A stretch of 33,263 nt of DNA, taken from NCBI GenBank assembly GCA_014729775.1, contig WJJJ01000021.1, forward strand, positions 88,788-122,050, given 5' to 3'. The notes beneath the pieces were generated by a model. It saw nothing but the letters and a program-made list of their open reading frames with translations, was not told the origin of the DNA and did not search any database. The translations under genes and the position numbers were made by a program. Source of the DNA: Candidatus Omnitrophota bacterium. Lineage in GTDB: Bacteria; Omnitrophota; Gorgyraeia; Duberdicusellales; 4484-171. Position 1 is the stretch's first letter. Each line of letters begins with the position of its first letter. Shown here in pieces: positions 1 to 33,000 of this stretch.

Positions 1-1
1 T

Positions 2-3000
2 CTTTCGCTCGCGGTATCTATTCAACCTATGACAGGCGCATATTATTTCCTCGTCACTGGCAAGACGGATCTGACTGCTTCCTCCTACCCGGATGTTCCT
101 TACAAACCGCTCCCCGCCGGGAAACCGGATGAGCTCCAGCGAACACCCCGGCTCCTCTTCTCTCACGATCTCGCCTGATTTCTCGGGGGGAAATGACCGG
201 AGCCCGTCTGAAGGAGCCTGGCCGGGAGAAGAGCTGTATTTCCCGAAAGCATGCGCTCCCCGGGATTCCTCCGGCGCATCATCGACACCGATAACCGGAA
301 AAGCGATTTTCCGCTGGCGAGGATCCAATGGAAACTGGAGAACATCTCCGCCGGAATCAGCGGCGATAGACGGCCCCTTAAAGACCACCTCACATCCAAA
401 ATCACGGTAGAATTTCGTATTCTCTTCACTGACGTCATCGATAAGCGCCCGGTATGCCTTCCTCAGCTGAGCAGACCGGAATAAAAAACTTACCGCGGTC
501 CGGCCGATGCCCCTTTTGCGGTATTTTTGGGATACATACAGCGCCGGCGCGACAGAAACCGTAATCCCCTCCTCGTCCAGCAGCGGATTCGCGTAAAGCG
601 CCTTCCTCATGATCAAGACCTTCTCCCAGTCGGGTCCGGCGGTGACCGTGCCATGAACGTACCCGATCAATTCCTGACGGGCGCGGCCAAGAGAAAAAAC
701 CTCCACCAGCAAATCCACGTCTACAAAGCTTATATTTGGATCGATCAGCGACAAGACAAACTTGAATTCGGTTCCTCTTAATGTTTCGATTGAAACGAAT
801 CCCCGATGCCGCAGGGCGTCTACCACCGCTTGTTCTCCGATGGCAGTGGAGGGTACCGGCGAGGATACTCCGCCGGGCCCGATGATTCTTAATTCTCTGA
901 AGATCTTTTCTGCCAGCTGGCGGTGCGATGCCGTAAGCTGGGCATTGTCAAGAATACGCAGGATCTCCTCCTCGCCCAAAGGAAGATCTTCTTCCGTAAG
1001 CGCTTGATTAATGAGGAGGCCCCGGATAAAAGCCCTAAGCGGGTCGTATTCTTCCTCCTGCAGTGTATTTGTTCCGGAAAGAAGCAGTAACCCGAGATAC
1101 GGAATACCGAAACGATCCAGCTCCATCTCGTTGTTCTCGGCAACGATCAACAGCTTATCGTCGAAACTCAACCTCCGGCCGGATTTTCGTTCAAGCCGGT
1201 CAATCTGCCTGTTCACCGCGGCCGAAACTTCATCGAGCGTGTCGGCCGCGAGAATATTCATTTCGATTTCATAAGGATAATAAATATTCAGCATCCCTTC
1301 CAATGCCAGTCTTCGGGGCAGGTTCCACCGTTCCGAAAGATCAGCGACACCTTCCAGATCCTCCGGTTCCAGTTCCGAACCGAAAAATATTTCCGCGTAT
1401 ATCCACGGATTGATCAGCGTAAAGTACTGCCTGAGCGCACCCCTGAAATCCTGCTGTTGATGGAGGGAACGGGCAATGGCGACCTGACACAATAAAGCGC
1501 CGGGGCCTAACTGAGCGCGAGCCAGCCGGAACTGTTCCTGTGCGAGTTTACGCGCAGAGACTCCCTGTTCATGATGACCAAGATACTCATGGATCGCCGC
1601 GGTATTGCTGTACAGGTACGCCAGACGTTCGCGGACCCGCATTACCCGCGGGTCATCCGGTGAAAAAGTCGCTAATTTTTCAAGTACCGGCCAGATTCCG
1701 TTACGGGCAACTGCTTCATAAACCGCCTCCAGGGGGATTTCATTGATGGAAATCGCCCATCTGACCCATTCGACCACGCTTTCGTTAAAATCGTTTAATC
1801 CCGCGAGAAAACCCTGGAGTTTTCCCTCTTTTGGATCGACAAAAAACTCTCCGGCGACAATCTGGCCCTGCAGGTTAGGATCATCGATCACCGAATACAA
1901 CCCGCCAAGGGCGCGAAAACTCTGCTCTCTCAAACGAAAGGAAGTTTTATCCATCGCGTCCCTCAACAGCAGCTTAACGGCTTGGTGTTTTTGATCATCG
2001 GTCAGCCTGGGAACAAGACGTGCCAGATGAGAAGCTGCGATGCGTTTCTCGAAAGTATCGTTTTCCTGCAATACTTCGAAACAGCGTCTGACCGAATCTT
2101 CATCATATATCACCGATTGACGGGCTATCTCCTGCACGGCAGCACTGAACGCAAAATGCGGGGGACGCCCCTGATAACAGTACTGTAATGCTAAAGAAAT
2201 AACCGGAATCGTTTCCGAAGGAGGATCGCAAAGCCGCACCTTCATTGCCATTTCATAGGTGTTATCCATCACCAGCAGCTCTTTGAAATCGACAGATATT
2301 TCATGAAGGGCGCGCCACAAACGCAATTCTTCCGCGCGTATCCTCGCCGCCATGAGACGCCCGATATTCCACGCGGTCGGATTCCGGCCGCCGGAGGAAT
2401 CGGCGGCACGGGCAATCCGGTCTAATTCTTCAAACATAATGGTCGCGGCGAACGCGACGATCCCGCTTTGCACATGACAGTGCATATCCTGGATATGAGA
2501 CCGTTCCCGTTCAACCAGCCGGTGCAGCACTTCTTCTCTCAGCCCGAAAAGTATAGCTCCATTCAGCCACAGAGAAGAAATATACATTTTCCCCCGGTGT
2601 TCTAAATCCCGGATCTGCGCGAGCGTCAATATTCCCGGAACCGCCTCCATGACAATATCCGCCTGGACGTCTTCTATTCGTAAATCCCCGGGAATCCTGC
2701 GGCGATCAGCGAGGATCAGGATATCGGCTTCCTGGTATAACAACTCCTCCTGCCCGCCGCACTCCTCATCCCGATAATACTCAAACAACGACACATACGC
2801 TTCCCGTTCTTTACGGGCGCGTTCCGCATGCTGAATCCCGCGCAGAAGCTCGACGGCGTCCAGTCCGTTTCCGGAATAAAATCCCTGCTCCTTTTCATTC
2901 ACCCCGGCAATGCATATATCGTCGATAAAACGCACAATCAGTTCCCGAATGATCGAACACCCTGTGACGCCGACTCCATCTACCAGTACCCGGGGCCGTT

Positions 3001-6000
3001 CGGGAATGGACAGCACCCGCGGCATTTTTCCTCTGCGGTTGAAATGACGTATCACTTCCAGCGCCGTCACCAAGCCTTGTGCGTTCAACTGCCAGCCGAA
3101 GGGCGGATAGCCTCCGTCCTCTTCCGGGCACCCGGCCGCGGGCAGCAAAGCGCCTTTCTCGGCGAGTATTGAAACAGGGATATCTTTCCACTGTTTATTC
3201 TCGACTGCATCCCGTATCGCTTGTATCCGTTTCATCATCGGCACGTATCCCGGCTGTCCATACCGCTCGCCCATTCCGCTTCGGAGCATATCGTGGAATT
3301 CCTGCCGGGAAATACTCTTCAGAAATGTGCTGTAGAACGCATCGGCGATAACCTTCATATCTTCTTCGGTGGTACCTAGATCGGAGGTAACGATATAGTT
3401 CCATCCCAATACCGGAATTCCTTCGGCGACTGAATGAAGCGCCAAGACCTTCGCCCATTCCGCTAATATTTCCGGCTTGGTCCGTTCGCCGTCGGATACG
3501 ATCACCGTAGCCGCTCCGCGCATATAAATATCCCATAACGCACAGGTCCTGTCGGTTTCAACGGCCCGATCTTCCGCTTCGAACCGGGCTCTGGCCCGCA
3601 TCTCGCCGTATGCGTCCTTTGTTGCGGTTTTAAAGATCACCCCTCCGCAGCCGGGCTGTAATTTGAGCTCATCCAAAAGAGGCTTCCCTATCCCGCATTT
3701 TACCGTCACCGCGTAATAGTGATCCCCTTCCAGCAGTACGACCTGATACGCATGGTGCGGATTGCGGTACCCGCCGCGTATATATTCGATATGCGGCTGA
3801 GGAAACGCCGCCCGCTGCGGAACCGGAGAGGAGCTCTTGCACTGAATCTGATCGTCTCTCTCGACATCGCCGAGTCGGACGTATTCCAAAGCTTTATTAT
3901 AAAGAGACATGCTGCGGTACATGAGTATAAGCCACTTAGACCGCATTTCATTTACGGCAAAATACACTTCCCCAGTCGCGTCATTGCGCACCTCGCGCGA
4001 AAAAGGCCATTCCTGATCAAGAAAATACCTGCGCCCTTCTTGGAAATACCGGGGGAAAGAATGACGGGCTTCCCGCACGAGAAGCCTCCGCTCATCGATC
4101 CATCCCGCGTAGATATCTATCTCGCTCTTCGGCACGGTGTGGAAGTGCTCAAGCACCGTCCGCAGATACATGAGCGTCTTACCGGTCGCCCGGGTATCGA
4201 CGAATAAGACCCTGGCCCCGCGGGTGACCCCGTTAGCCTCCATCTGTTTCGCGAGCACATGCGCTTCATGGTACAAGTCACGGTCAGTTTTCCAGAGTTC
4301 CCGCATCCGCTCGCGGAAATATCCGTATACCTGTTCAAAATGCCCGGGACGATACTCGCGATAATACGGATCCGCTTTCTTCTTCGGGAAGGCGACCGCC
4401 GTATGCGCTCTTTGTATCGCATAGGCTTTGGAATTGTCTGCTATCCTGATCAGGTTTTCCATGACGGTATCTTTCCTGTAATCACTGACCACCGCGCGAC
4501 GCGGCATCCCCGGTTGATAGACACTCGTGAAGGGAGCCGATTTTCCTGAAAGAACCAAATAATAGTGGTAAAATTCCGCGATGCTTAACGCGTCCCGCGC
4601 GACGAACACGGGAAGAAATTCATTCTCTTTTCCTACAACTCCGGAACCATCCAGCAGGAGCGGTAGATTTTTCACGAACTTATCGACTTCATGAAATCGG
4701 AAGAAAAGATTCCCTTCCCTCTTTGCCTGAACATATATTTTCTTCAGCTGATCGCGTAATCCTACGCGGCTCACGGTAATCGCGAATTCATTCTGGGAAC
4801 CGAAATCTTCGGCGTCGAACACGTCACACAGTGCATGTAAATTCTCGAAAATAGTTTCGGGAGCGAAATGAACTGCGGCTCCCTGGTCATCCCGCGGGAA
4901 ATCCTCTTCGGTCATTGCCCAGGGCAAGTAGGTAAAATCTAAAGAAGTAAGTGTCTTCTCGAGCATAAGGCCTCTGTACCGCTCGATAGCAGCGCTAAAA
5001 ACCGGGGCTGCCGCTCTCCCTTCACCGTAACGCGAGAATAGAATTTCTCCCGGAATGGAGATATCCGCCGAACGCACAGGTGAAGACCCTGTACCCGCGA
5101 CAAGAACATCAAGAAATAATCTGGATAATTTTTCGCTCCAGTCCCATCCGGACACTTGTTTTTCCGGGAACCAGGTTATGCGGTTATCCGGAAATTTTCG
5201 CGCTAACTGTCCCAGCTGATCTATCCCTTGCGTCCGCACATTACCGGAAGTATACGGAGAACGAATATGATTCCAGTCAATCAAGTAAACCCGCTTTCCT
5301 TGAAGATAGGCGCGAAGCACCGCGTCTACCGTACCGCTGTGTGTCTTTGCCTCTACGACGACCACGATATCCGATAGAGCGGTGGTGATCCTGTTGCGGG
5401 CCATCACGCGCCGCGCTCTGGCCCGGGAACTCCTTTCCTGAACAGTATTGTATTCCGACACAAAACAACCGTCATACTGCAGAATTTGTTCAGCTTCCAT
5501 CGCGTGTTCGCCAAAATAATCGTAATAGGGATATTTCAGCACATCTGAAACCGCGGCAATAGTCATCTTTTTATTGCTTAACGCGCCTCTATGCGCGGCC
5601 ATATCTACGCCGGGGACGAACCCGGAAACAACCGTCCAGCCTTGCTCCGATGCCTGCCGGGCTAATGCGCGGGTCGCGACAACCGCATTCACGTGAGTAG
5701 AAGTAGTCTCTATGAAAGACACCGTGCGCAACGAGAACACGCCCGCCGGCTCGCCAAGCAGATAAAGCTCTTCCGGAGGAAGCAATTTAGACGCGGCATA
5801 TTTTAAATTTTTCCCTGTATATTTATTTCGTACCAGATTCTTCTCCAGTATCCGGTTGATTTCTTTTCTTTGCTTCTGCCGCTCTCCGACAAACATACGC
5901 ACTGCGACAAAACGCGGGATTTCTTTTTCAAAAAGCGACCGCACTTTTCCGTCCGGCCCCGTTGCGGCGGGAGACGACGAAGAATTTACTCCGCCTCCGC

Positions 6001-9000
6001 TTCCGTCAACACGTGTCTTCTTTCTCTTGAAATTGGAAAACAACCGGGATAACCAGCCGGAATTATTCCGCAGCGCGGCAATCCGGTCAATGATGACCGT
6101 CTCAAGCGCGTCTATATCTTCCAGCGCGGTCATCACCACGCCCTCTTCATGCAGGATGCTGTATTTCACAAACGGATCAATATTGAGCCGCGAGATCCGC
6201 GCCCAGATCCCTGACGCCCCCCGCAAAATACCACGGACACGCTGCACCGCGCTGAGCAGGCTCTTCCAAGTGACAAGGTCATTATCTTTCGATAAATCCA
6301 TAGAAAACTGCTGTGCCATCCTTTCAATATCTTCCCGAATTATCTCATTCATATCCCTCACACGTCTGACCTCGCGCATTGATGAGTCTAACCTGTCCCT
6401 TTGTTGGCCGGTTTCGAACAGGTGTGAGGAAAAGATATCATCACCCATATCCTCCCATACATCCTGGAAATCGTACGTGATGTCTTCCTCTACAGACCCA
6501 AGCAAGGCATCAAGAATACTCAGCTTATGAGCTAACAGTGAAACATACACTTTAGCGTGAAGGGCCTGTGGGAGGTTGGCTGTCCAGCGGGACATCGAAT
6601 CTTTAAACGGCATCAGTATCCGGAGGATGAAATTTCTTTCCAGCGCGATCAGATGCCTGTTCTCCGGAGAATTATGCAGTTCCGTGCCGGGCAGACTGAC
6701 TACCGTATCGCTCCAGAACTCATACATAATCCCGCCGAGCGCGGCTACCCGTTTACAGCAGTACTCATCCGAGCCGGCAGCGACGATCTCTCTTCCTGCA
6801 CCGCGCAGTTCCTGCTCGATACGCTTTAATCCCGCGCGCGGTTCATCAAAGCCGTGCGGCAATTCGTCGTGTATTCTTGAAGCGATTTTCGCAATACGCC
6901 TGAATTTCCAGAACGCGAACCGGTGCCTGCTGGGCAGCGCGGCAAGGTCATCACCGAAATACCAGAGCATAACGCTTCCTCCCAGCCATAGAGAGAATTT
7001 GGCCGGCAGAGACAGAGACCCCATCCACATGAATCCGAAAGCAACAAACAATCCCAGACAAGTGATGCATACCCGGCGGTTATGGAAATTGTCTTCACCG
7101 CTGGAGAGGGACGAAGAAGACGCCCTGTCGCCCGAAGGCTCGCGGGCCTGATGCCCCGGAGAGAAAGGATCGCGTTCATCCTGCGCCCGGTCTTTGCTTG
7201 GCCCCTTCCAGATATCCCGTGACGAGGACTGATTCGCCAGGGACTCCAGAAAGTTCACCACTATTTCCGGACGCGAAGGAGTAACAAGCCATTTCACCGC
7301 ACGCCATATTCCCTGGAGCGGAAGCGTCATCCCGTAAAAGAATTCCATGATGATCTTAAGCGGGCCTCTCTCTCCGTCATCCGGTTGTCGACCAAGAGGA
7401 GAAGATCCGGCCGTACCGGCATTCCCTCCCCTGACCCCGGCACCGATTCCTTCTTTGGATTTACGCCTGCTCTGACGGGAGAATTTTTGCTCTCTTGAGC
7501 TCTCATCCCGCCCCGAACCAGGCGCCTGGGGCGCAGGCGGAAGCAACGGAGCTCCTTCACCGCCGTAATACCCTTCGCCGCCCTCATCGTACGGGTGATA
7601 CCAGCGTATCGGATCCACCTCGGCAACCCCGACACGCATACCTTCATCGGCACTCCGGTAAAGCGCCAGATCCCAGCACCAGAACCGCCGGGTAGTAAGA
7701 TCAAAATCATACAGCCGTACCATCAAAGTCACATCGTTTACGTACGCGGCAATCCCATAAGTCACCCACTGCATTCGAGAGATCCCCACATGTGTATGGG
7801 AGATCCGGGCGGCACTGATCTGATCCTGAGAGCTTAACCGCAGCCGGGAAGAATACGATTCGCCATCGAAGCTGGGCGGATGACCGTGCAGAAACACCGC
7901 CTGCGTATAGGCGTGGTATACCCGGGGAGAATGCGCCAACCAGCCGGAAAAAACAGTTCCTTCATGAATACCGAACAGCACATGCGACCCCTGTTGTCCG
8001 AAAACCTCTGGATCCCCTCTATCGGTATTCCGCACGAGGACAAGCGCGGGCTCGGCGTACCGCGCCGCCCGGTCTATCGCTGTCTGCAGATCAAGCAAGT
8101 CATCCGGAGATAACTGCCATTCCGCGCCGAGCAAAAGGTGTGTCTTTCGGTATTGCACAGAATCAATCAACGCAGACTGATATTGCCCGAGACTCATCGG
8201 CATATCGTCAAACATAATACGGATATTGGGGAAAGACTGATCTTCACCGTCGGGGATATAGGCATAAAAGTCATCCGAGAAATAATATAAAGATCTGAAC
8301 AACCGGGCCTGCGGCGGAGAAATGTCGGTATAAAAAAGTGTGTCCCCGCGCTGACTTACCGCGCGCAGGCTCCCCTGAGGTACGCTTCCCTTTCCCGACA
8401 GAGGTTCCACGCTGCGAGTGAATACCTGCGCGGCTTCCATTTCAAGAAGCCGGCGCGCACCGGCCAGACGTTCGCGTACATCTCCGGGCACATCTGCAGG
8501 AGTTCCCGCGGGAGAAGAAGCAACTTTGATCCGGGCTTCGCCTTCGATCTCCACCAAAAGATTCCGCCGGCATACCGCGGCATTGACGTTGACCCCTTCG
8601 ACTCCCCACTGCGCCAACACCCGCTGCACCGCAATATTATCGGTCCGATTCAGCACGTATCCCCGACACCGGATCATATCTTCGATCTCCGCGCCGATGG
8701 CGGGAACGCCGGATAATCCGCCGAGGTTTCGTCTATCCATAAGGTTCTCCTCACTGATAAGATGTCTGATATTCTCAAGAGTAATCCGCGTCTGGCCGCG
8801 CACGTCCCCTAAGGCCAGCGTATTCTCACCCCGGATAGCGGCCGTGCCCGAAAAGTAGAGAGTCGAATACCATACCCCATGCTTGCGTATCATTACTACT
8901 TTCGCCCGGGCAAATTGGGGAGCGGCCTTTTTCTTTTTCCCCTTTTGACAGGTACCGAGAAGCTGTCCTTCCGTATAGGAAAATGAATCAATCTGCAGGG

Positions 9001-12000
9001 TATTGGTCACGCTTTTTATCACCGATTCCCGATCTTGTCCGGGCTTATAGGCAATCCCGGCAAGTGTTACCAATCCATGATCAATGCCGATTCCGGTCTG
9101 CGCCGCGTATTCGGTTATTTTCCCGGCGCGGGCGTAACACCACCCTCTTGCCTCGTTAAAATCCTGATACCGCTGTCTGAACCTCCGGAACAGGGAAGGG
9201 ATGCGCCTGCGGCCGGAAAAGCCGGACATCACCTTCTGATCGCCTCGGGTCAACAAAGAGATCAACCGGGTTACGGGGCCGGTGGGATAAAATTCCGTAA
9301 TATGCGGGATATAATTCCAGTGACGCACGACATGATGCTGAGACATTCCTTCATGTCCTAAGATATCATCCTCCGCGGAAAAGCCCGCCCGGGCCTGAGT
9401 GTAGGTGTCTTCGCCCGATTCCGCATCAATTCCTCCCAGATAAAGCCAGATATCGCCCTCATCGAACATCCGGACATAGCGGTGACCTCGATAATCGCGG
9501 TAATCGACGCGGGTATCACTGCGATAAGGAATCGCGGACACCGTCTCTATCACCACATCAAAATAATCGAGCGGACATTCAGCGATCACACTCAACGCGG
9601 GCATTCTCTCTCCAAAGTAATTGCTGATAATTTTCTCAATAATATTTTTTCGAGCCAGAAATTCCGCTTCATTCACCGCGGCCACGAATATCGTCGCTGA
9701 AAGCGGGAACACCTGCGCCTCCGTGCTGCGGGCGAACTGCCGCACCGCATCCTCAACCTCCGCACGAAAATCAGCGTAGCGGCCGGGAACAAATATCCCG
9801 TGAAGTTCGCCGTATGATCCGGCATCATACACTTTCTGGCTGGTAGAAATGGCCGGAACCCCCAGCATACGCCTCGCCTGGCGCAACTGCTCCGCGAAAA
9901 ACTCCTTCTCCGGAAGCGTACTCGCGTTCAGATATCCTCGTTCCATATAAACTAATACCGGATCAAGATGTCCGGTGGTAAGCGGATTTCCCCGTTCTCC
10001 CGCAGAATCCGGAATCAGAGGAGAAGATGCGGCACGACGTCCTTCGCACTCCGAAAATGGAAGGCGAATACCGGAAGCGCTTTCAGAACGGGCAAAAATA
10101 ATAATCACCGGTAAATATTTTGACAGGGAATAAAAGAAATGCGCGACCGACAATGCCGCTCTCCGGAGAAAAGAAAAACGCCGTTTACCCCGCCGCGGCA
10201 GGAGTCTGAGAGCGCCGTTGGCGTTGTTCGGCGGATCTTCGAACTCACTGCTCCTGCCGACGATCGCTTCACTGAGCGGATAATCATTATTCACTATTAT
10301 ATCCGCGTATTTGGCGCTTTGCTTGAAATGAGGATCATCTTCTCTTTCTAAAAACCTATTGAGTTTATCGGTCCGCACGTGGCCTTCGGTCAAATGCGCG
10401 TATCGTCTTCCTTCCTTCCTTCGCTGCCAGAAGTACGCCTCCCTATTGCCCGCTTCGGCCTCCACCCAGAAAAGGAGATCTGCCTGGGCGCAGACATCGG
10501 GAAAGCTGAGCGCATGTTCAAATTCGAACAGGACATTCGCATTCCCGGCAACGCGCAGGCGCTCGCGCAGTTCGCCTGTTTCTGTCACGTAAAGATCGCT
10601 TCCCGCGTCGATCAACGCTTCGGAAAGCTTCTTCCGCGAAGATTTATCCAGATATCCAAGCGCTTTCCTTGCATCCACGCCCGATTCTGCCCCGGCGTTC
10701 GCGCCGATCTTCTGCGTCAGCGAATCAAGATACCCCTCGGGAAGGAACTCAGCGACGCTTTTGTGCTTCAGCCGGTTTGCCCTGGCCAGCGCGCAGCGCG
10801 CGCCCGGATGATACTCAAAATTCAACCACTCCATGTCGATCAGACCGGCGCTCAAGCGGCGGTCAAACGGATGTACGTAAAGCGGTATATAAATATCCTC
10901 GCCTTTTCTCGCCCGTTTAACCATTTCCTTCCACTGTTCAATCTCATAGCGGTTATAGGGATACTGCCTTCCCGGTGATGTGGTATTCAGAAGCCACCGG
11001 TCCACGTCGATGGCGTAAGTCGGTCGATGAAGACCCTCCCGTAACGTTTTCGCGACATTGTGCACCACCGCGCCTTTACCGGCGGCGAATTTCCCTCCGC
11101 CCAAAATAATATACGGGCGTGTATTGCGCAGCCGGAAAATCCCCCTCCCGCTCTTCCCGTTTCCTCTTCTCTGCTTGACATGAGCGAGGACTTTCTGCGG
11201 GGCTTCCTGAAAAGTAACCCGTTTGCGCAATTCACGGTGATCACGGAAAGACGCCGCGAGTATTGAGTTTATTCCTCCCAGAAAAAACACAAGATGATGC
11301 TGTATGAGAAATCCGGCCGCGAAACAGATTCCCGCGGCCACGGTGCTGGCGGTAATCCCGCTCCAGATAATACTGCGGAAAGCCGACTGCCTGTTGGAAG
11401 AACACATAAAGTACAGCCCGCGCCGCCCCCAGTAGAATTTCGCGTCCACTTCATATCCTTCCCTGCCGCGAAAGCGGCGGATCGCCTGCCAATGGGCCCA
11501 TTCATGAGTGAACACCGAAAGAGCCAGCAGCGGGATACCGATAAAAAGAAAAGCGAGGGGAGCAAACGGCAGGGGATAAAACGAAAGCGCGTACACTGCC
11601 GTGCTCACCAACGCCAGTGATAAGGTAAACGTATCAAGTGAAGCCTCTACGGAGGATCTTCGGACAGGCGGCCCGTTGAGTTTGCCGGAGAGGGCAAGAA
11701 ACGCGGGACTGCTCGCACCCTCGCCTTCTTTACTTTGACGAACCACTTCGCTGAGCCAGTCCGCATCGAGGGTAAAGCCCTCTTGAGTCCGGACGACAAT
11801 CCCTTTCTCCCGCAGACTGTCCAGCGCGCCCTTCTGGCTTTCGGCAATATGCAGCGGACCGTTCCCGGAACTCAGAACGGCCGCGCCTAAATCTTCTTCA
11901 TATTCGGCACCGTACGGATCAACGGTGAAAGCGCGCGGATGATAGGTAAACAAGTCCATGAGAATACCGCGTTCCTCGGGAGCCACCATGGCGGGCAGTA

Positions 12001-21000: not shown

Positions 21001-24000
21001 CTTCGCTGTACGCCACTATGTATCCCGTCCCGCTTTGCACGTAGTCTCCCACTCTCGACACCGGCTTCAACCGTTCGGGGATCACGCCGTCAAGCGTTCC
21101 TATTGTCGGTGCCCCGTTTTGCTGCGCATTCCCGAAACTGGTCGGGCCTGCTTCCTTCCCTTCCCAGGACAGCATCCCGCCAAAATCGGTCCCCTGCTGG
21201 ATCATCCAGGAAGTAAAGACGTTGTGCTCCTCAACAAAAATAAGATGAAACTTCATGCGCGGATCTACACGGATAAGCTCACGCACGCGGTCTCGCTGAG
21301 TTTCAAAGAACCAGTCGAACCTCCGGCCGCCGATGAAAATCACGGCATCGGCAGCGACGATCTGCTCTCTCCATTCCGGATTGAATAACATGTCAATAAT
21401 GAGATCCGGGCACTTGTAGGTCACGAACCGGCGGACGAAGGTAAAGAAAGGCATATCAAGAGGATCTTTGCCCGCCTTTCGGAATTCCTCTTCGGTGATC
21501 CCGATATCCCCAAAAGTACCGTGGAACAGTTCGCGGATAAATTGTTTCTTTTGGCGCCGCTGAATATGCAGAAGCCGGCCGATAAAACGCTCTTTGAAGC
21601 GCCTGTCGCCGTTGATGCGTTCAAAGAACCGCCGGTGTCCGCCCTGCAGGCCGAGCTGTTCTCTGAACTCGGCGATTAACCGCTGGATCCCGACGCCCTG
21701 CCACCTCTGGATACAGGACCCTTCGCTGTTGCCGAACAGTGTTTCCTCCACGACTTTATCCGCGAAATCGACAAATATTTCCTCGCGTAAAATACGCGTA
21801 TGCATACTCGAACAGCCGCTGATGAAATCACTCACCGCCCCGGTAATGCGTACCAAATCCACTCTCCCGTCATGGACGGTATCCCGGAATGCTTCCGCCA
21901 CGCTCAGTTCTTCAAAAAAGCTCTCCGGATAATAGGGCATACCCGCCGGAACAATGGTATGGTTATAGTGATGTACTATCAGATCTTTAAATCCCCGGTG
22001 TTTATAATAATTGTCTCCGCGGATAATCGGCCGGTACTCGCGCCGGCCCCGGCCTATTCGTGAATTCGGCCCGTACTGCGGCTGGATAACCTGCGGGATC
22101 ACCAGCGTCGTATTGACTTCGCTGGTCGAGAACAACAGCTTTTCTCCGACAAAGTAATTATCATACGGAGAGGTTCTGCCCCGCGTACGAGCGGTGCGGT
22201 TACGCTGACCCCGACGGATAAACTCCAGACACACGCGCCGGTACACGAGACTCTGCACCGCGCGCCAGTAATCTGCCGTCTCGCCGGGATAGGCTTCGTT
22301 AAAGATCCGCGGGCAGTACAGCCAGTATTCCTGCAGTTCTGAAAACGGGTTACGATACAACTCCACTTTCACCCCGCCTATCCCGAATTCATTTACCGTA
22401 AACTCGAATGTATCCACGAGTTCAAGGAGACTTTCCTCCGGGTGCTCCCGGTTTATCGCGATAGTCTCGATAATATCCGCCCGGGAGACAGCCGGCGGGC
22501 CCCGCAGCTGCATAAGACCGCGGTTTGCCTGCTGGCCTTTCACCGCGCTGGAGTACAATACTCCCATTACATGCAGGTGTTTGCGCGCTTTGAGCGGACC
22601 CCATTGTTTTTCAAGAATCCGGTACCATCCCCTCACCAGGTCGGGTTTAAAACTTCCCAATCCTCCCGCCATCAGCAGTTTCGCGAACTGCCCGGTGTTA
22701 TGCATCGCGTCCTGCGGACTGCATCCTAACACGTTGATAAGATGCGCATAAAAGGCGTCCAGGAAACGGAAGGAAAGTTCGTATTCCATCTGAAAAATGA
22801 ACACGTCCCGGTCCTTCAGTACAGCCGCCGACCGTTTCTCAACTTCCGCTTTGAGCATATCCGCCCACTGACCGTCAACCGCGAATCCCCCCGTTTCTTC
22901 TTCCCGGTCCTGCGCGCGGATAAGTCCGTACAGCTTCTCTCCGATCTCCGGTTCCGCCAGTACCGCATCCACTATCCTCCGGCCCCCTTCGTCTCTGCCG
23001 TATTGCCGGTACATCTCGTTCCATTGCGCGAGCCGTCCGGTAAATTCATCTTTTGCCTCCGGCAGTGTAAAGATGTCCGGGGTGTGCTCCTGGGCGGGAG
23101 AGGAGCTCTTGTTTACGAATACCCCGTACAGATAATCGACATTATTCACCGCGAACCCGCCGAGTTTCACGCATGCCGGCTCCCGCCGCTTCTCCACTGA
23201 TTCGGCTTTTAATGAGGTGTGAGATTCGATCAGTGCGGCAAACTGCGTCTCGGTAATGAGATAAATCCACCGCTTGGTTTCCGTCCAGAATCCCCGGGAG
23301 TCCTGCACCCACTGCGCCTGCTTTTGATTGACTGCTCCCGGAACAAGCCCGGCGCCGGTCATCGGCCAGCGGACCATGAGTCTGCCTCCGTTTTCAATCC
23401 GGGAAACAATCTTATCCATCACCCGCGTAAACACCCCCATGGTGTCAGGAGAATAAAAACAAAGCAGCAGATCGCTAACCCAAATCACGTCAAACAGATA
23501 ATCTTCGGGAAAAGGGAACCGGTCTCGGGTCACGTCCATTACCGCTAATTCTACCCTCTCCCCTTCGTGGACAGTCCATCTGCCTTCGCGGATATCTCTC
23601 TGCGCGTAATCGATTGCTCCCCGGGAAATATCCACGCCGTATATATCCACGGCAAGCCCCTGCAGACGCTCTTTAGCGATTGATGCTACCGACCGAAGAT
23701 CCCAGCCCAGTCCGCATCCCACATCCAGCCAGCGCACGTTCCGCGTTGATTTGCTGCCGATAGCCGCTTTGTCCCGGGTACCCAGCGCCTGCACCAGGAG
23801 ATCTTCCTGTAATTTTTTGGTTTCTGCGGTAATATCATCCTGCGTCGCTTCACCGTAATAAACAGCGACTGGTGTGAGGATCGCGCGTCCCGCCGCTATT
23901 CTCTCCTGGATGGATCCTGACCAATACTTATTATTATCCTGTTCAGAGGGGCCCGGCACACTCGACGAACCTGTTCCGCGAGCTCCTCTTTGCCCCACAA

Positions 24001-27000
24001 GCCCGTCGTAAACGCCGATCCTCCCGCCCCATCCGGGATGGTACCTTTGAATCAATGTATCCACCCCTTTTCCGCATAGCCCTGAGGCTTCATACCTGCG
24101 GAAATCCTCCGCCGTTTCGGCCACTCGCAATCCCCATATCCCTCCATTATATCCGTCATCGTTAAACCTGTTCCGGTATCTGGCTGCCCAATCAACTTCC
24201 AGGACGCTGTGCAAGTAATGAATACGCTCCAATACATCTGGGCTTACGTAATTATCAACCAGGGAATGATACGTGAGATAGGCAATATCTCCTCCTCCGT
24301 CTTCCACCCCCCACCGGCAACTATGAATATCAGCCAGGGAGCGATATCCGTTGCGGTACATCTCAAGCATTATCCCTATCAACATATACGGCAGATCAAC
24401 CTTATCACTTCGCTGCTCCCCGTAAAAACTCATCTGCTTACGGCTGACTGAAAATCCCGCGCCCGTCGAATCGTAACTGTCGTTGTACACATCCACTTCC
24501 CTGAGGCTGACCCCGCGTGTCCGGGACATCTCCACCTGAGCAAATTCGGGCTCGAAAAGATCGCGGGGCCTGAACGCCAGCGTGGAACCGTATTCAACGA
24601 GCGTCTCTACGTCTTCCGATCCGCCATCCTGAATGAGCTCAATAATATCATGCGGTTGTATTGACGGATACACGAATATCCCTTTTAATTTTTGCGGAGG
24701 AATTTGTCTTTCCAGAAATTCGGAAAACGCACTGCCCGTGTACGCACGCACCTGCTCTATGGTCTTTTCTGTATGAGGAACCGTGTGATACTTCCAGAAC
24801 TCGTAATCGTAATAGGCAACCCCGCTTACCGGACTGGAAACGCCCTCCTGCTCCCGAACCCAGATCAGCTCCTCTCGATGCAATCTGTCAGAAGATTCAT
24901 CCGGACGGCCGTCCTTGAGGATGTCAAATACCTCCCCGTCTTCTCCTGCCAGCAGTTCGAGCATCACCTGACGCGGAGTATCGCTGATAGGGGCGGGGTG
25001 ATTTTCGAGTATCGTAAACGTGGTCTCCAGCGGCTGGTATTCGATGTCCCTCAAGTACCGCAACCGCTGTGCGTTATTGCCGTTTTCGAAAATATCGCTG
25101 AATATTAATACGTCCAGCAGCAGCTTCAACCCGCCCGCGGAAAGCCCGGAAACCGCGGCAATCTCGTCCAATCCTTCAAACCCCTCGGGATAAAAGAAAT
25201 GATGCGCGATAAGGAATTCCTGCGCCGCGCTTAAGTTCAGGCCCAGCTCACGACTGCGGTAGACACCGTTGACTTCATGGCTTGTTTCGGAATAAAGTTG
25301 CCGCGCGAATTCTGCCCGGCTGACATCCTCGGGCAGCCGCTGCCGCAGAGGCAGATGCGCGCCGTTGTCAAACACCTCTCTTGCGACCTTCTGCGCGACG
25401 TGCCGATAATACGTGCCGTCTTCGGGAAACCGCCGTGCCGATTCTTCCCTTATCACCCCTATCTTTGTGCCGGTTACTTCCTCTACAATGGCGATATTCC
25501 GCTTTACCGTGGCCGATACGTTTTGAAAGGCAACATCCTGAAGACCGCCGAAATCATGAAGGTATGCCGCGGGGAGAAACGTATCGATAAGCTGCTGCGG
25601 GACATCCAGCGCGTACAGAAGCGCGGCGCCGTAGCGGGCAACGCGTTCCACATGGGCCTTGTTGATATTGCCCCCCTCCGGCTCAGGGTAAAGATCAAGC
25701 AATTCAGCGGCGACAGGGACAGGAAAACCGCCGCGCGGCAAGGCAGGTCTCCTTTCCGCAGGGCTGGAAGCTTCCGGCGGCCTCAAATCGCTGATTGCTC
25801 CTAATGTGAGATCCATGAGACCAAAGAGGTGCGGGAGGTGAGCAGAAAAGATCCCGATCAACCGGTCATGCTGATCGGCAATCCCTTCGGGAAGATACCG
25901 GTCCTCTAACAAAGAATAGCACATCCGGTTGAACTGGTGGTCCGGGAAAAATTCCCGCATTCTCCGAAGGATAGCATCGATATCAACTTTTGTAATTGCT
26001 TCTGCAAGCGCAGCATAGCCCCCCACCCGTTCCGCTGTCTGGAAAAATACAGGAAGGCTTGCCGGGCCCACGCTTACCGCAATATTCTGCGCTCCGCGAT
26101 ACCCCTCGCCGGGGACAAAAACATAATGAGCGATATCAAGCGTAAACGGCCACATCCCGATATCGGCAACGAGCAGGCTGCGCTCATCAACGATATGCGC
26201 ACTCAACGGCACCATCCTTGTATTTCCGTGCTGGCTGGTGAGAGGAAAATCGACCGCAATGTCTTCACCGTTAAATTCCCCCAGAATACTTGTATCCTCT
26301 ACCCACTGGTCTAACGGATACTGTTCACGCACAATAGACGGAAGATCATCTAAAGAACCGGGAGCAAATACGTGGCGGAACGGCGTTACGTCCAGGACAT
26401 AATCATCAAGAACCACCACGTTATGGGTATATGAAGTTTGCCTGGGTATATATTCATTCCCGGACACGGGAAGATAATACGTATAAGGGATTTGAAGTGT
26501 TGCCATAGCAGCTCTCTGTGTGGAATTGCGCGAAACCACGTCCCCGATAAGAGCGCAGCTCATCAGACATTCTGACCACTGTATGCCTATGCCTTCCGCA
26601 GACAGATCGTATCCCGGCCGGACGGTATTTACCCTCATCTTCCCCTGCTCGATCAGGCCTGCCACGCCGAACACCCTGACCGCGTCTCGTATTTTTTGCG
26701 CAAAAGGATCAAAGGGCGCGGGAGAAGAGACAGGATCACTGATACTCCCTCCGGGGAGAGAAGACACACGTTGCCCGTTCTCCACCGCACTTGAAGCTCC
26801 GTTCTCCTGTGCATAGAACATTCTCTCCAACGGATCGGGCCGGTCCCAATTCCTTCCGACAAACCCGCGGGAAACGACCTTGCGGCCGCCGGGACAGTCA
26901 TGGAATTCGATAAAGTATTCGGTGATACGCGGATTATCGATGTAATCCGGAGAAAGAATCCCGCGCTTGAGCGCAGAATCAATAGCAACGATGCGACTGT

Positions 27001-30000
27001 GTTCGTAGCGATCGATGACCCGCCCGAGATACAGATTTGATGCTTCAAAGAAGACCGGATCACCGGTAGACTGCCAGGTAATCCCTTCCACGAGAGAAAA
27101 ATAGTTATCGAACACCTGCACCTGGGTGATCCGCTCTGCCCGTTCAATCGGCCGGTACAAAGAATACGTGACGCCTTCGTCCTCTTTTTCCCCGGCGCGG
27201 ATATGATACACATGCCGCCGGCCGTTCCAGAAACTTAAAAATTCGGGCGCACTCCCTGCAAAGACTGTGTCGGACACCGCGTGAGGAGCTCCCTCCGCGT
27301 TGCCCCGCAAAATATTCTCCAGTACCGCCGGATCGCACACGCACAGCGGATAGGCATATCCGTGCCGGGTCGCTTTCGTATCGCTGTGGCGCCGGATCAC
27401 CAGATGCCGGCTGGCCACGTTGAAATTGACGCGTACCCCGCTGTAACTGACAAACCGCAGGTTCGGCGCATCAGGCCATTCCGCGCCACCGATGGCGACG
27501 GGAAACAACTGTTTGGTAAGACGAAGCTCGAACCCATGATATGCTTGGTACTCGCGCAAATTAAGCGCCATCAGACCGGTTCTTTTCTCCGGTTCTCGTG
27601 AGGAGATCAATTCATCCCCGGTCCGTAAAAACACGTTTCGGCCGCTATGATGATCACGCGCGATCACAAGAAACACCTCGGGGTTGGCTTCATCCTGCAG
27701 CACCACGTACCGCGGCTTCTTAGACCGGTCAAGATAGGCGGACAAGAATGTATCGGCCGTGACCCGGCCGCTGCCCAGCGCCTCGATCTTGAGCCGGTGC
27801 TGGTGGAAACGAATGACATTGCTCCGGCTGACGCAAGGATTACGGTGGGCCCGTATCCATTCCGCGACCCGGCGTTCTTTTTCCGCACCGGTCATGCCCG
27901 GCTCAATCCCCATCACCATATCTTCAAAGGGGTAAAATAACGGTTCGTTCATCAACGAAACATTTTTGGATACCGGCTTGCCCACCGTATGCGCTGCCCG
28001 CTGATCATGCGGCAGATACGTCGGTATTAACCGGAATTCATCATCCCTTGTTTCAATCGTGAATGTTTGAGAGGGATTCTTCCGGTTCACAAACACAATT
28101 TTATTCTTTTCCCGCGTGACTCTGATGCCCGTTTTGATATATCTCGGATAGGTGCAGTCACGGCGGGATGACGCCAATTTTGTTTCCGACCATCCGGCTT
28201 CTCCCGCGGGTGAAGATGTCCGGCCCGCAGTTCCGCCGGCACGGTCCGCTTCCGCGGAATGATTCTGCTGAATGAATCCCGCTTTATCTTGCGAAATACG
28301 AACCAGGGTTCCGGCGACGCGATTGAACAATTCCGTCTGCCCTTCATAGGAACCGATCGCCCCGCGAGTGAACTCTTCCTGGGGCAGGTAAATCTTGCCG
28401 GCGCTTGAATCGTACCCCTGCCGGTACGCCTGCGGGTCACTGGTCACGCGCCAGCCCAGCCCTTCACGGCTCACCAGGTAAATATTGGAAAGGTTCAGCG
28501 CGGTTTCCAGCGCTCCGGCAGAATCAAACCCTAACTCTCTAAAACGTTCCCGGAAATAATGTCTCATTTGAGAAAACACTTCCGGGAACCGCACCGCGTT
28601 GCCCCGTTCAAATACCACCGTGCGCAGCGGCTCCTGCTTAGTCCGTGCCAGCACCTCCGCGGTAAACTGACCGGCGGTACCCGTGCCCACCGGAGCCAGA
28701 GAAGCCTCGTCAGCAACCGCCAGCGCCAGCCTGTGCACCACCAGACTGGGAAGCAGAAACCGTTCCTGGGTCAAGATCCGCTCCCGGTTACGCAGCCCCC
28801 GCAGTTCATCTTCATTGCTTTCCAGGATTCGCTGCATGGACTCGGCGATCTGCGTTACATCCAGCGGATTCACCACAAACCCGTTAAAGCCATCGATGAT
28901 CTGCTCCTGCAGACCGCCCACTCCCGAGGCCAGTACCGGTGTCCCCTTGATAAGCGCCTCGGTCATCGTCAGCCCGAAACCTTCCCGCAGAGAAATCTGC
29001 GCCGCGAACCGGGAATACCGCTGCAGCAGGTTTACCACCAGATTATTGGTTTTGTTATAAATATGGATGTTCCTGTGAGATTCGACACGCGATCTGATCT
29101 TTTCAAAATACTCAAAGCCTTCCGGGTCATCCGCGGCGAAATTCCCTACCAGCCAGAGATCAAAATCATCCCGGGCCAGTTCATCATAGGCGTCCACCAG
29201 GGTCTGCTGTCCCTTCCACGGGTCGAACCGTGACACGCACAGCCCGAACGGCCGTGCCGGATCAAACCGGTCACCACGAATATCGGCAATCTCCGCGGCG
29301 ATCTGCTGTTGCTCCCCGGCAGACAGAAGCCGGTTCTTGTCGCTGAAGAAATCGGTAGCCGGTGGCATGGTAAAATGCCGCCCGCCCAGATAGCGCGGCG
29401 AGAAATCACCGATATGACTGATAATCCCGTCCGCCTGCGGCCAGTATCGCGTAATGAACGAAAGCTCCTCCTGTGTCTGCCGCGAATGCGTTAAGCCGTG
29501 TGTGTCCACGTGCACCCTCAAATAAATACGCGCGTGCCTGTTCTGCCGGCGAATATGGTGGATCAGCCCCGGCTGGGGATCTTCCACGAAAAAGATATTC
29601 CGCTCATCCCGGAATAATTCCTCCAGGTTCTTCGCGTTATATTCGTTGGTACGGAGATACACCTGCCGCTCCGCCCCGCTGAATCGAACCTGTTTACCCT
29701 GGATCCCGTTATGCACTTTTTTGGTCACATCATGGAATTTATTTTTCTTAATACCCTGGTTATCGGTGTAATCATAGGCGTCAAGCGTATCCAGCACGAT
29801 CCAGGTGACTTCAACTCCCAGTGCCAGAAAGAACGGGATCAACCGGTGCATGATCTCAGCTACCCCTCCCCCGGCGGAAGTGCTGTTGATAATCACCAGC
29901 CGTCTTCCCTGATCGCGCAGTTGACCGGCCAGCAAACGGATATCACCCATCACCTGCGGCTCGTAGGAGAACAGCTGAGCGTACCTTTCCACCATCTGAG

Positions 30001-33000
30001 GATCAGGCTCCAATCCCGGCACAGGGGAAGACCCGGGGCGGTCGGCACGGGTATCTCTGGCTTCATCCACGCTCTCCCGCCAAAACGAATAAATCTGCTC
30101 CATTCTCCGCCGGTTGGCGGTATACTCATCCTGCTTAATCCGCGCAAACACCAGATACTGCGCAAAGATATTTAACGCGGAGATCACGTGCCGCTCCCAG
30201 CTGAAATTCTTCTTTACGTTCTCTTTCGCCTTTCGTGAGATGCCCTCCCAGAGATCCTCCTGGATAAAAAGCGATCTCATTTTCGCCGCGATATCCTGCG
30301 TGCTTTGGGGATCAATAAGTAATCCGTTTTCGCCGTGATCAATAATAATCGAAGGTCCTCCCTCTTTCGTTGCCACGACCGGAATGCCGGTAGCAGAAGC
30401 TTCGATGACGGTAAGACCGAATCCTTCCCAAAAAGCGGCGTTGACGAATATCCCGCGGCGTAATTTCACTTCACGATACAGGGCGGCCGTCAATTCTCGG
30501 GAAGGAAGCGGAGGAACCCACGCGACTTTTCCTTCCAACCGGTGCTCGCGGATGATCCTGTTTATTTCATCCCAGTATATGCGTTCTTCATCCCGGGCTC
30601 TGCTCCGGTCGGGATGACCGGCCGCGAGTATCAAGTTCGCTTCTTCCTGTAATTTCGTATCCTCGGCATACGCGCGGAGCGCACCTACCACGTTCTTTTT
30701 CTCCTCCAGCCGGCTTAACAGCAGGATCGGCGGCCGGCCCGGTTTCACCAGCCGGCTGAACACATTCTCCTTTATCCATGGTCTAAAGTTTCCGTCTTCC
30801 GGATGGAAGCGGTCGTTAAAAAAGCGCAGATCCGTGCCCGGGTAATTTACGTTGAATGCCGCCGAACGCGGATCAATTCCCTGCTGTACCGCGTAGCTTC
30901 CCGGGCAAACGAACCGGGTATACACCGGGTATTCATCCTTAAGTTCGGACATGATATTGGCGAACACCACATGCGCCGAGCCGGTACTGATCACGTCGGC
31001 AAGCGCCATGATATCAAGCCATCGTTCCTGCTTTTGCTGCTCCCACTTTTCGTTCGTTTCCGGAAAGAATACGGAAAGCTCTAAGGCGTGTGCCATCGCG
31101 TGCTGGAGCGCCCCGGGAAAATGCCGGGCAGCCAGACGCGCGGCCACGAGATTCCCGTCGGAATAATTCCCCATCACCACGTCTGGATCCCGATCCTTGA
31201 GCTCCGCCTTTATTTCAGCCGCGGCGTCATCGATGAACGAATCAATATACGGCCAAAGCTGATAACGGCTTATCCACTCGTCTGTTCCCCGGAACGGCAC
31301 ACGTACGATCGCGGCGTACTCACTGACCTTCTCCCGCGGCTGATCGCAGGATGTCCCGTTCGCTTCGGGGATAAGCCGGGTAAGAATACGCACCTGCGGA
31401 TCTTCATCAATGCCGGCGTCATACAGTTTTTTCTTCAGGATCTCGCCCATATACTTTGCCTGATCGATCACATACACGATCTGCCCCCCTGAATCCGGTC
31501 TGCCCAGCACTCCGCTCTGCGCGAACCATCCGTGGGTACTCACGCTGACCACCGTGCGGACAAGGGGCAGTTCCTCCAGTATATCGAGGCGGCCGTCGTG
31601 AAGAAACATCACGAGCTGGCGCATCCTCGCTCTTACTTTTCGGGAGAACCGTCCCCAACCACGGTAAAAACCTTTCGCACGCAGATAGCTAAACAGATCC
31701 TCTTCATGAGTAAACACACGTGTTTTTAATTCATCGCGCACCGCGATCGCCGCTTCACTCAACCGGCGGCCGTCTTTCAGCCTTTCGTCAATGAGCCCTT
31801 TCTCCACCAAGAGCGAAAGCACCGCACTCACCGTTTCGGTTTTATGTTCCCGTAAATAGCCCGTGATACGGCCAATCCCCTCACCGAGGCTCTCCTGCGG
31901 CACCCGGCCGGCAACGGGATCCCCGATATCAATTACCGTTTCTTGCGTCGGCGAAGACGAATTCGATCCGCGCTTGGCGTAACGCTGTTGTTGCGCTGCG
32001 GTGAACCGGTGAATCGCCTCTTTGACCTTCACACTCCGGCTGATATCAAGCAGCTCGCCGCTCTCGGGTAAAAAGGCCTCATGGAGCGCGATGATCAACC
32101 CGTGATATTCGTCTCTTTCCCGGCGGAGTGCTTCGAGCAACACTTCGGGCTCAGGAGTTTCGGTCTGTTCCTCAAAAAACTGCGCTGCCCCGCTTTGCGC
32201 CTGCGAAACCCGCTGCTCCCGGACGAACGCGCTGTATCCCCGCGGAATCTGCCGCAGCAACCCTTCCGTACTCCAAGACATATTCGAAGAAATCCGCGTA
32301 TCCCGGTCTTTCCGCGCGTACAAATACGGATTGAGCCGTTCATATATCGTCGCGTCCATCGCGACGCTGTATCCGGTTTCGGTGACCGGCCACATATTGG
32401 TCACCGGGCTGATCACTTCGACTAACTGCCGTACGAACCGTTCGAATTCCGGGGAGAGTTTATCACGCTGATGCGTCGTGTATTTCGCGCCAAGCTCCTC
32501 GCCTTCCTTTTCCCGGTACACCAGCGCAGACAACGGTACCGTATCCGGGATAATCCAGTCTCCGCGGTCCCTTCCCGTAAAGCCCCGGGCGAACGCGCGC
32601 AGGAACCGCTTCCGGGTATCGGCCCCGGAAGGAATAATTTTTGCTGCCTGCATGTCCAGGATAAGCTGGCTGGCCAGCACGACCGCGATCGCGACCGATT
32701 CAGAGATGTCCTCATCATTTAAGCTTCCTTCAAAGGATATAAAATCACCTAAATCGGCCTGTCTTCCTTCCTGAATTTCAGTATTATTGAGGAAGAACCT
32801 GTATGTCGCATCCATGGTTTGCACCTTGCTGTGCGCAACGTTATGCAGCAGTTTCGCCCCCAGCCGGATCCACGTTTTACCGATCGCCATCAACGCGTAC
32901 TGGTTGTTGCCGATACCCTGCAGGAGCGCCTCAATTTTCCTCTCCGCCACACCCAGATACTGCCACCGGCCCAACAGTGACTGATCGGGGTCCATCGCGT

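Follow-up and report, generated by a model that had tools for sequence, protein, structure and literature searches.

A Ser-Ser-Pro peptide recurring at the module boundaries of a giant Omnitrophota open reading frame: a candidate lineage-specific junction signal

The giant open reading frame and its contig

The stretch of DNA considered here, referred to as the window, comprises the last 33,263 nucleotides of a 122,050-bp contig (WJJJ01000021.1; G000:C16:88788-122050) from the 1.65 Mb genome of a Candidatus Omnitrophota bacterium (assembly GCA_014729775.1, hereafter G000). Positions 2 to 33262 form a single minus-strand frame with no stops in 11,087 codons, belonging to a giant open reading frame (ORF) that occupies C16:59218-122049 on the minus strand (at least 20,944 codons, 62.8 kb) and is still open upstream at the contig end. 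The genomes compared are metagenome-assembled, and the missing 5' part of this ORF was not found at the starts or ends of the other contigs in the genome. The remainder of contig C16 carries ordinary genes. Roughly 45-50 enzyme-sized modules make up the giant Omnitrophota protein, of which the window encodes the N-terminal half as assembled. Most boundaries between modules are marked by a single copy of the tripeptide Ser-Ser-Pro (SSP), a protein-level junction signal lying in flexible segments. Very probably, this signal is specifically recognized in some way.

Frequency, position and extent of the motif

All 22 SSP motifs listed in a preliminary description of this DNA are present at the positions given there, all in the one minus-strand frame (that description named no strand), and its impression that composition would yield only a few has been borne out, with 2.0 expected in the window (Poisson P ~8e-16); the full ORF contains 45, versus 4.25 expected. 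Other orders of the same residues are at expectation (SPS 5 and PSS 4 copies) or absent (PSP 0), and the shuffle check proposed in that description, performed locally in windows of 15-100 amino acids (aa) with S/P richness preserved, gave means of 5-7 SSP and a maximum of 18. The background of the genome was estimated from fetched stretches rather than the entire genome: 187,416 aa from other contigs contain 43 SSP, versus 34 expected, and the full motif, [SATGV]SSP[LAVIM], is found five times in 207,688 aa of ordinary ORFs (4.0 expected) and 33 times in the giant (0.47 expected). A genome-wide SSP habit was thus rejected, because the ordinary proteins show no excess. Two further long ORFs that were inspected, encoding a coiled-coil protein and a surface-type protein, are both devoid of SSP.

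The preliminary description held that no motif lay inside a recognized catalytic core, and the comparison with profile boundaries that it suggested agrees with this: where 6.6 SSPs would be expected inside Pfam envelopes, none is truly internal, and one touches the first residue of a starch-synthase match. Blocks of homology with other giants contain a single one of the 45 SSPs (12.3 by shift null), which is an inner junction that the partners share. The spacing, described earlier as mostly 200-1000 aa, is more even than random in the full ORF (mean gap 443 aa, median ~365 aa), with two of the 44 gaps shorter than 180 aa where 14 would be expected; the flanks are, as had been noticed, enriched in G, S and P, and slightly in A. 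An AlphaFold2 model of residues 3150-4230 (24 sequences) has a confident fold between the SSPs at residues 3387 and 4192. The first of these SSPs is located at the end of a low-confidence stretch, where only the module side is informative, the preceding part being of low confidence for want of homologues in the alignment, and the second is located within a low-confidence stretch. In this one region, both of the motifs flanking a phosphorylase-like module are at or in low-confidence linkers.

The 45 sites are encoded by 33 distinct nonamers in which the serine codon classes TCN and AGY are mixed, and the same mixture at the same positions is found in the giants of two related genomes, G025 and G038. 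TCN and AGY codons cannot be interconverted by one silent step. The mixture suggests that many of the sites probably arose separately, under selection at the protein level, rather than by copying. A degenerate SSP-coding pattern occurs 45 times in frame, versus six and five times in the two remaining frames of this strand, and nucleotides beyond the motif codons and the adjoining codons carry little information at any position. A DNA repeat or recombination site as the conserved unit is ruled out by this codon diversity and frame specificity.

Pooling of about 330 SSP sites from 12 giant ORFs gave the consensus [S/A/T/G/V]-S-S-P-[L/A/V/I/M]. S, A, T, G and V occupy position -1, where K occurs at one site, R and Q at none, and Asp is depleted (5/331); position +1 is L/A/V/I/M at 248 of 330 sites, with K at one, D at three, and E and R at four each. 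The earlier statement that the next residue is usually V or A holds for 15 of the 22 sites in the window, as a local preference of this genome, but over the relatives the wider class of small or aliphatic residues (A, V, L, I, M) is the better description. No charge exclusion is seen at positions -3 and +4, at which K is even enriched, and the constraint is confined to five residues. Judged from the pooled sites, this sharp-edged five-residue pattern looks like molecular recognition, and a generic flexible linker is disfavoured because charge is excluded so sharply at two positions only. Some SSP sites are extended by longer conserved peptides such as GDASIYFVDGKPISSPL in the G038_C37 giant, and some are extended as SSPx..GSLKTA in the G025_C3 giant.

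Homologous giants and other junction codes

A search with part of the giant ORF against genomes of the order revealed homologous giant open frames in several of them, with the modules in a different order; homologous giants occur in records titled Omnitrophota. An enrichment of SSP in such relatives, which the preliminary description had proposed looking for, was found: the motif is present in 62 copies (4.8 expected) and 27 copies (1.8 expected) in two giants of G025, and in 68 copies in G038 (4.9 expected), 21 in G007 (2.9 expected), 11 in G036 (1.4 expected) and 23 in L109 (1.1 expected), with enrichment also in L110, L114, L115, L116 and G145. In BLASTP comparisons between giants, the limits of homologous blocks fall at the motif in both partners, and a two-module block common to G000 and G025 has its inner SSP at offset +553 in both. 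In G000, 22 of the 32 homology-block ends lie within 60 aa of an SSP (7.9 by shift null); block ends are also near the motif above the null in G025, G007, G038 and G032, and without significance in G177 and G006, the blocks used in some of these tests sharing modules and not being fully independent. Several other giants begin with a signal-like N-terminus. An open frame of 57,756 codons that runs off its contig in another Omnitrophota genome (G265:C2:22777-196044), and that includes a stretch of masked bases, has no SSP or DNGG code. The sequence RAPP is enriched in some giants (12 copies versus 0.31 expected in G265_C2, 7 versus 0.06 in G221_C14 and 5 versus 0.11 in G007_C5), in G265 and G221 partly within a repeated module.

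Some giants are punctuated differently. In those of G032 and G006, SSP is at chance and DNGG is present in 21 and 7 copies, respectively, preceded by L, F or I in 28 of 28 cases and often by S-L; both genomes have DNGG-coding sites well in excess of the control, gathered on a few contigs, and G177 is likewise a DNGG genome. The giant of Ca. Gygaella obscura has DNG followed by N, D or G, also at an orthologous join, and no SSP. At the orthologous N-terminal junction of the phosphorylase-like module, the SSP type is seen in G000 (KSSSPAQ), L109 (SSSSPVE) and L110 (SSSPVE), and the DNG type in G032 (FDNGGTV), G006 (LDNGGEK) and L118 (KDNGNKE). A tree of this module places G000 (SSP) and G006 (DNG) as sisters with strong support and forces at least three changes of code. 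Sister modules with different codes, together with these forced changes, indicate that the junction code follows the host giant and not the ancestry of the module, which points towards a signal that acts in the protein and is read by some component of the same cell. Bipartite junctions, with GA[VL][VM] and then [AS]SS[AP][AVI] within ~10 residues, are found in L122 (Omnitrophota NC_groundwater_1513).

Modules encoded in the window

The junctions and modules recognized in the window are listed in Table 1. In the full ORF, Pfam matches also include sigma-70, histidine-kinase ATPase, trypsin-like and TPR modules, among others, some of these matches being weak; no adhesion domain is found among the Pfam matches of this ORF. 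A simple hydropathy scan gave only five transmembrane-like segments in its 20,944 aa, with more such segments in other giants.

Table 1. Junctions and modules of the giant ORF, in window coordinates (S-adenosylmethionine is abbreviated to SAM, AlphaFold2 to AF2)
Feature	Residues	Position	Strand	Basis or remark
Giant ORF, part	1-11,087 of at least 20,944	2..33262	-	stop-free minus frame; extends past window to C16:59218; N-terminus cut at contig end
SSPT junction	436	31949..31957	-	sequence
Sucrose-synthase-like GT-B glycosyltransferase module	561-1025	30188..31582	-	Pfam PF00862, E 2e-58
SSPV junction	1078	30023..30031	-	sequence
Trehalose-synthase (TreT)-like GT-B module	1125-1485	28808..29890	-	Pfam PF21269/PF00534
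SSPA junction; start of homology with G025 and G007 giants	1683	28208..28216	-	sequence, BLASTP
SSPA junction	2179	26720..26728	-	sequence
SSPA junction	2499	25760..25768	-	sequence
SSPV junction	2809	24830..24838	-	sequence, BLASTP between giants
Candidate degenerate junction SSSV, shortly ahead of methyltransferase module	3099	23960..23968	-	sequence
SAM methyltransferase module	3172-3346	23225..23749	-	Pfam PF13649
SSPA junction; orthologous join FDNGG (G032), LDNGG (G006), DNGN (L118)	3387	23096..23104	-	sequence comparison
Glycogen-phosphorylase-fold module	~3395-4163	20774..23080	-	Pfam PF00343, AF2 model, Foldseek, alignment
SSPV junction, in linker of low model confidence (pLDDT)	4192	20681..20689	-	sequence, AF2
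SSPA junction; same offset in G025_C33	4765	18962..18970	-	sequence, BLASTP
SAM methyltransferase module	4932-5042	18137..18469	-	Pfam
SSPV junction, abuts starch-synthase domain	5125	17882..17890	-	sequence, Pfam
Circularly permuted glycogen/starch-synthase-like module	5126-5627	16382..17887	-	Pfam PF08323, phmmer, G025 homologue
SSPG junction; guanylate-kinase P-loop region within few residues after	5628	16373..16381	-	sequence
Guanylate-kinase-like module, P-loop intact	5634-5780	15923..16363	-	Pfam PF00625
SSPH, first of close pair	5840	15737..15745	-	sequence
SSPS, second of close pair	5846	15719..15727	-	sequence
Candidate degenerate junction SSSA	6575	13532..13540	-	sequence
SSPA junction	7184	11705..11713	-	sequence
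DUF3267 putative zincin module	7247-7337	11252..11524	-	Pfam match below curated cut-off
SSPL junction	7746	10019..10027	-	sequence
SSPA junction	8249	8510..8518	-	sequence, BLASTP between giants
SSPL junction	8620	7397..7405	-	sequence
SSPA junction	9096	5969..5977	-	sequence
DprA/SLOG-like module	9162-9340	5243..5779	-	Pfam PF02481, E 1e-26
SSPV junction	9393	5078..5086	-	sequence
SSPV junction	9811	3824..3832	-	sequence, homology-block ends
SSPV junction	10800	857..865	-	sequence, homology-block ends
GNAT-like module	10907-10956	395..544	-	Pfam match below curated cut-off
SSPG junction	11011	224..232	-	sequence

The best Foldseek matches of the AlphaFold2 model are glycogen phosphorylases. 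The phosphorylase-like module and its homologues have no lysine in EAGPTSFGNAQQNG, the segment that binds pyridoxal phosphate in glycogen phosphorylases, and this suggests that the module is probably not a classical phosphorylase. Free-standing homologues of this module exist; those from Omnitrophota (L130, L131) have a signal-like N-terminus and no motif at the junction site. Others are found in records titled archaeal Altarchaeum/Altiarchaeales (L119, L121, L123, L129; ~665 aa in three of them), possibly due to transfer between archaea and Omnitrophota, or to mis-binning. In the GlgA-like module, the first ~14 residues of GlgA are absent at the start, and a matching strand, HVVFIAPEFSP, is found at the end, shortly before SSPG; the G025 homologue has the same circularly permuted arrangement. 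The position mutated in structures of Escherichia coli GlgA (E377A) is occupied by Ala in this module and in the G025 homologue. Further enzymes of glycogen and central metabolism (4-alpha-glucanotransferase, branching-enzyme parts, 3-dehydroquinate synthase, HAD hydrolases) are encoded by the G025_C3 and G032_C3 giants.

How the junction signal may be read

The junction peptide may be read in trans by a lineage-specific factor, most likely a site-specific protease cutting in or beside the motif; cutting would release the modules as separate proteins, and the gene would work like a viral polyprotein. Proteolytic processing of a bacterial polyprotein, with SSP as the cleavage site, is the leading explanation and has close to an even chance of being correct. 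Two hallmarks of a processed polyprotein, many separable units in one ORF and a strict motif at flexible boundaries, were found. The preliminary description had proposed an inter-enzyme linker or a protease site; the conserved junction is strongly supported by the boundaries, the selection at the protein level and the motif kept or exchanged at orthologous joins, whereas the protease would be an interpretation that the data favour. Across Omnitrophota, giant genes of up to at least 57,756 codons may be polyproteins in which shuffled modules are re-punctuated with the code of the recipient (SSP plus an aliphatic residue, a hydrophobic residue plus DNGG, DNG[N/D/G], ASPL and others), each code being read by a co-evolving processing enzyme; this broader proposal is tentative and falls somewhat short of an even chance.

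Several points weigh against processing. The proposed cleavage is deduced from sequence. No conserved cognate protease was found, although proteases elsewhere in the genome were not searched for, and none turned up when Pfam was run over most of the 20,296-aa G025 ORF and over the initial part of that of G032. One class of protease would fit SSP and another DNGG, and a switch of code would need coordinated change at dozens of sites. No obvious junction code was recognized in the homologous giants L111, L112, L113, G213 and G265. The giant ORF does contain, outside the window and just before the SSP at residue 19705, a trypsin-like serine protease domain with an intact H/D/S triad (C16 ~63104-63540; L061), the nearest solved relatives of which are the Staphylococcus Spl proteases. 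Among 40 genomes of the order, of which two thirds lack a known SSP giant, no good homologue of this domain was found. The one further match there is weak (E 0.006, in a 9,269-codon frame of G013), and the domain was therefore rejected as the general reader, not being conserved in relatives.

The main rival, a serious one that is only somewhat less probable than processing, is an uncleaved stereotyped linker: the giant would remain intact and its modules would fold independently, joined by a turn-forming hinge that each lineage prefers, to which a scaffold or chaperone may bind or which may serve as a helix cap. The motifs do sit in G/S/P-rich, low-confidence segments, and SSP, SSS, ASP, SGSP, DNGG and DNGN are all turn-forming and intergrade in some giants (G130, G145, L122); known giant proteins are mostly discussed as intact, and the lack of a conserved protease also fits. 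However, such a linker does not account for the enrichment of a single order of S, S and P, the sharp exclusion of K, R, E and Q at -1 and +1 only, or the invariable hydrophobic residue ahead of DNGG (28/28), and a passive hinge would not be expected to switch wholesale between lineages at orthologous joins. Post-translational modification of the linker serines in SSP lineages, by O-glycosylation or phosphorylation for example, seems improbable. The serines precede a small aliphatic residue, a feature also of some bacterial O-glycosylation sequons, and export is plausible because several other giants have a signal-like N-terminus, but the depletion of Asp at -1 is unlike a sequon of the D-S/T-A type (the pattern D-S/T-A/I/L/V/M/T has Asp before the modified residue), the sites number about one to a boundary, not several to a linker, and the DNGG code would require a different chemistry.

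It is even less probable that the motif acts as translation-tempo punctuation, with Pro or Gly-Gly at boundaries slowing the ribosome and giving each module time to fold before the next is synthesized. Peptide bonds form slowly with Pro and Gly. Some giants are enriched in RAPP, a strong arrest motif (PMC10951233), but it is located at module starts and not at SSP joins; moreover, Pro or Gly alone would suffice for such a role, which accounts neither for the exact pair of serines nor for the near absence of charge at the motif's edges. A DNA-level scar of module insertion or recombination would be in keeping with modules that have clearly been shuffled between giants, but is very unlikely given that 33 distinct nonamers occur at the 45 sites, the enrichment is limited to one frame, the serine codon classes are mixed and the information is confined to codons. 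Chance or low-complexity composition, to which the G/S/P-rich flanks might have pointed, is refuted by the gap between local shuffles and the real count, by the control of residue order and by the presence of the motif in independent giants, and its probability is negligible.

Comparison with known systems

Giant ORFs of unclear function have been described in Omnitrophota, including one encoding 39,678 aa in Ca. Velamenicoccus archaeovorus, and a link to symbiosis or predation has been proposed (Seymour et al., 2023, PMC10066038); the integrity of such large proteins has been called unclear (PMC12057145). The present ORF resembles these genes in phylum, in size (more than 20 kb, 62.8 kb here) and in being poorly conserved overall, but the passages of the first account that were consulted mention no junction peptide, lineage code or module boundaries, and most of the recognizable modules here have carbohydrate-metabolism and other enzyme folds, rather than being adhesins. 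No description of the junction motifs was found in the open-access literature searched; bioRxiv and many subscription papers were outside this search, and the novelty of the motifs is therefore provisional. The RAPP arrest peptides (PMC10951233, PMC12992588) are likewise a short Pro-containing motif recurring in some giants, but RAPP differs from SSP and does not mark SSP joins.

A strict, lineage-specific motif renders the question of whether such a gene yields one protein directly testable, as new N-termini could be sought at the motif in proteomes, and it provides a simple way to split giant ORFs into modules for annotation. Polyketide synthase (PKS) and nonribosomal peptide synthetase (NRPS) megasynthases are also very large multi-module proteins with inter-module linkers, but the modules here are unrelated stand-alone enzyme folds, the linkers share one strict peptide, and Pfam scans of the giant ORF gave no PKS or NRPS domains (KS/AT/ACP, C/A/PCP). 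If the processing proposed here is real, bacteria would possess a large cellular polyprotein system, its code changing between related lineages, on a scale not described before. It would differ from the polyproteins of picornaviruses, flaviviruses and retroviruses in being encoded by a cellular gene, of up to 57,756 codons in relatives, for which no conserved cognate protease was found and cleavage is a deduction, but it would share with them a single ORF, many enzyme-sized units and a short strict motif at flexible boundaries that varies by lineage.

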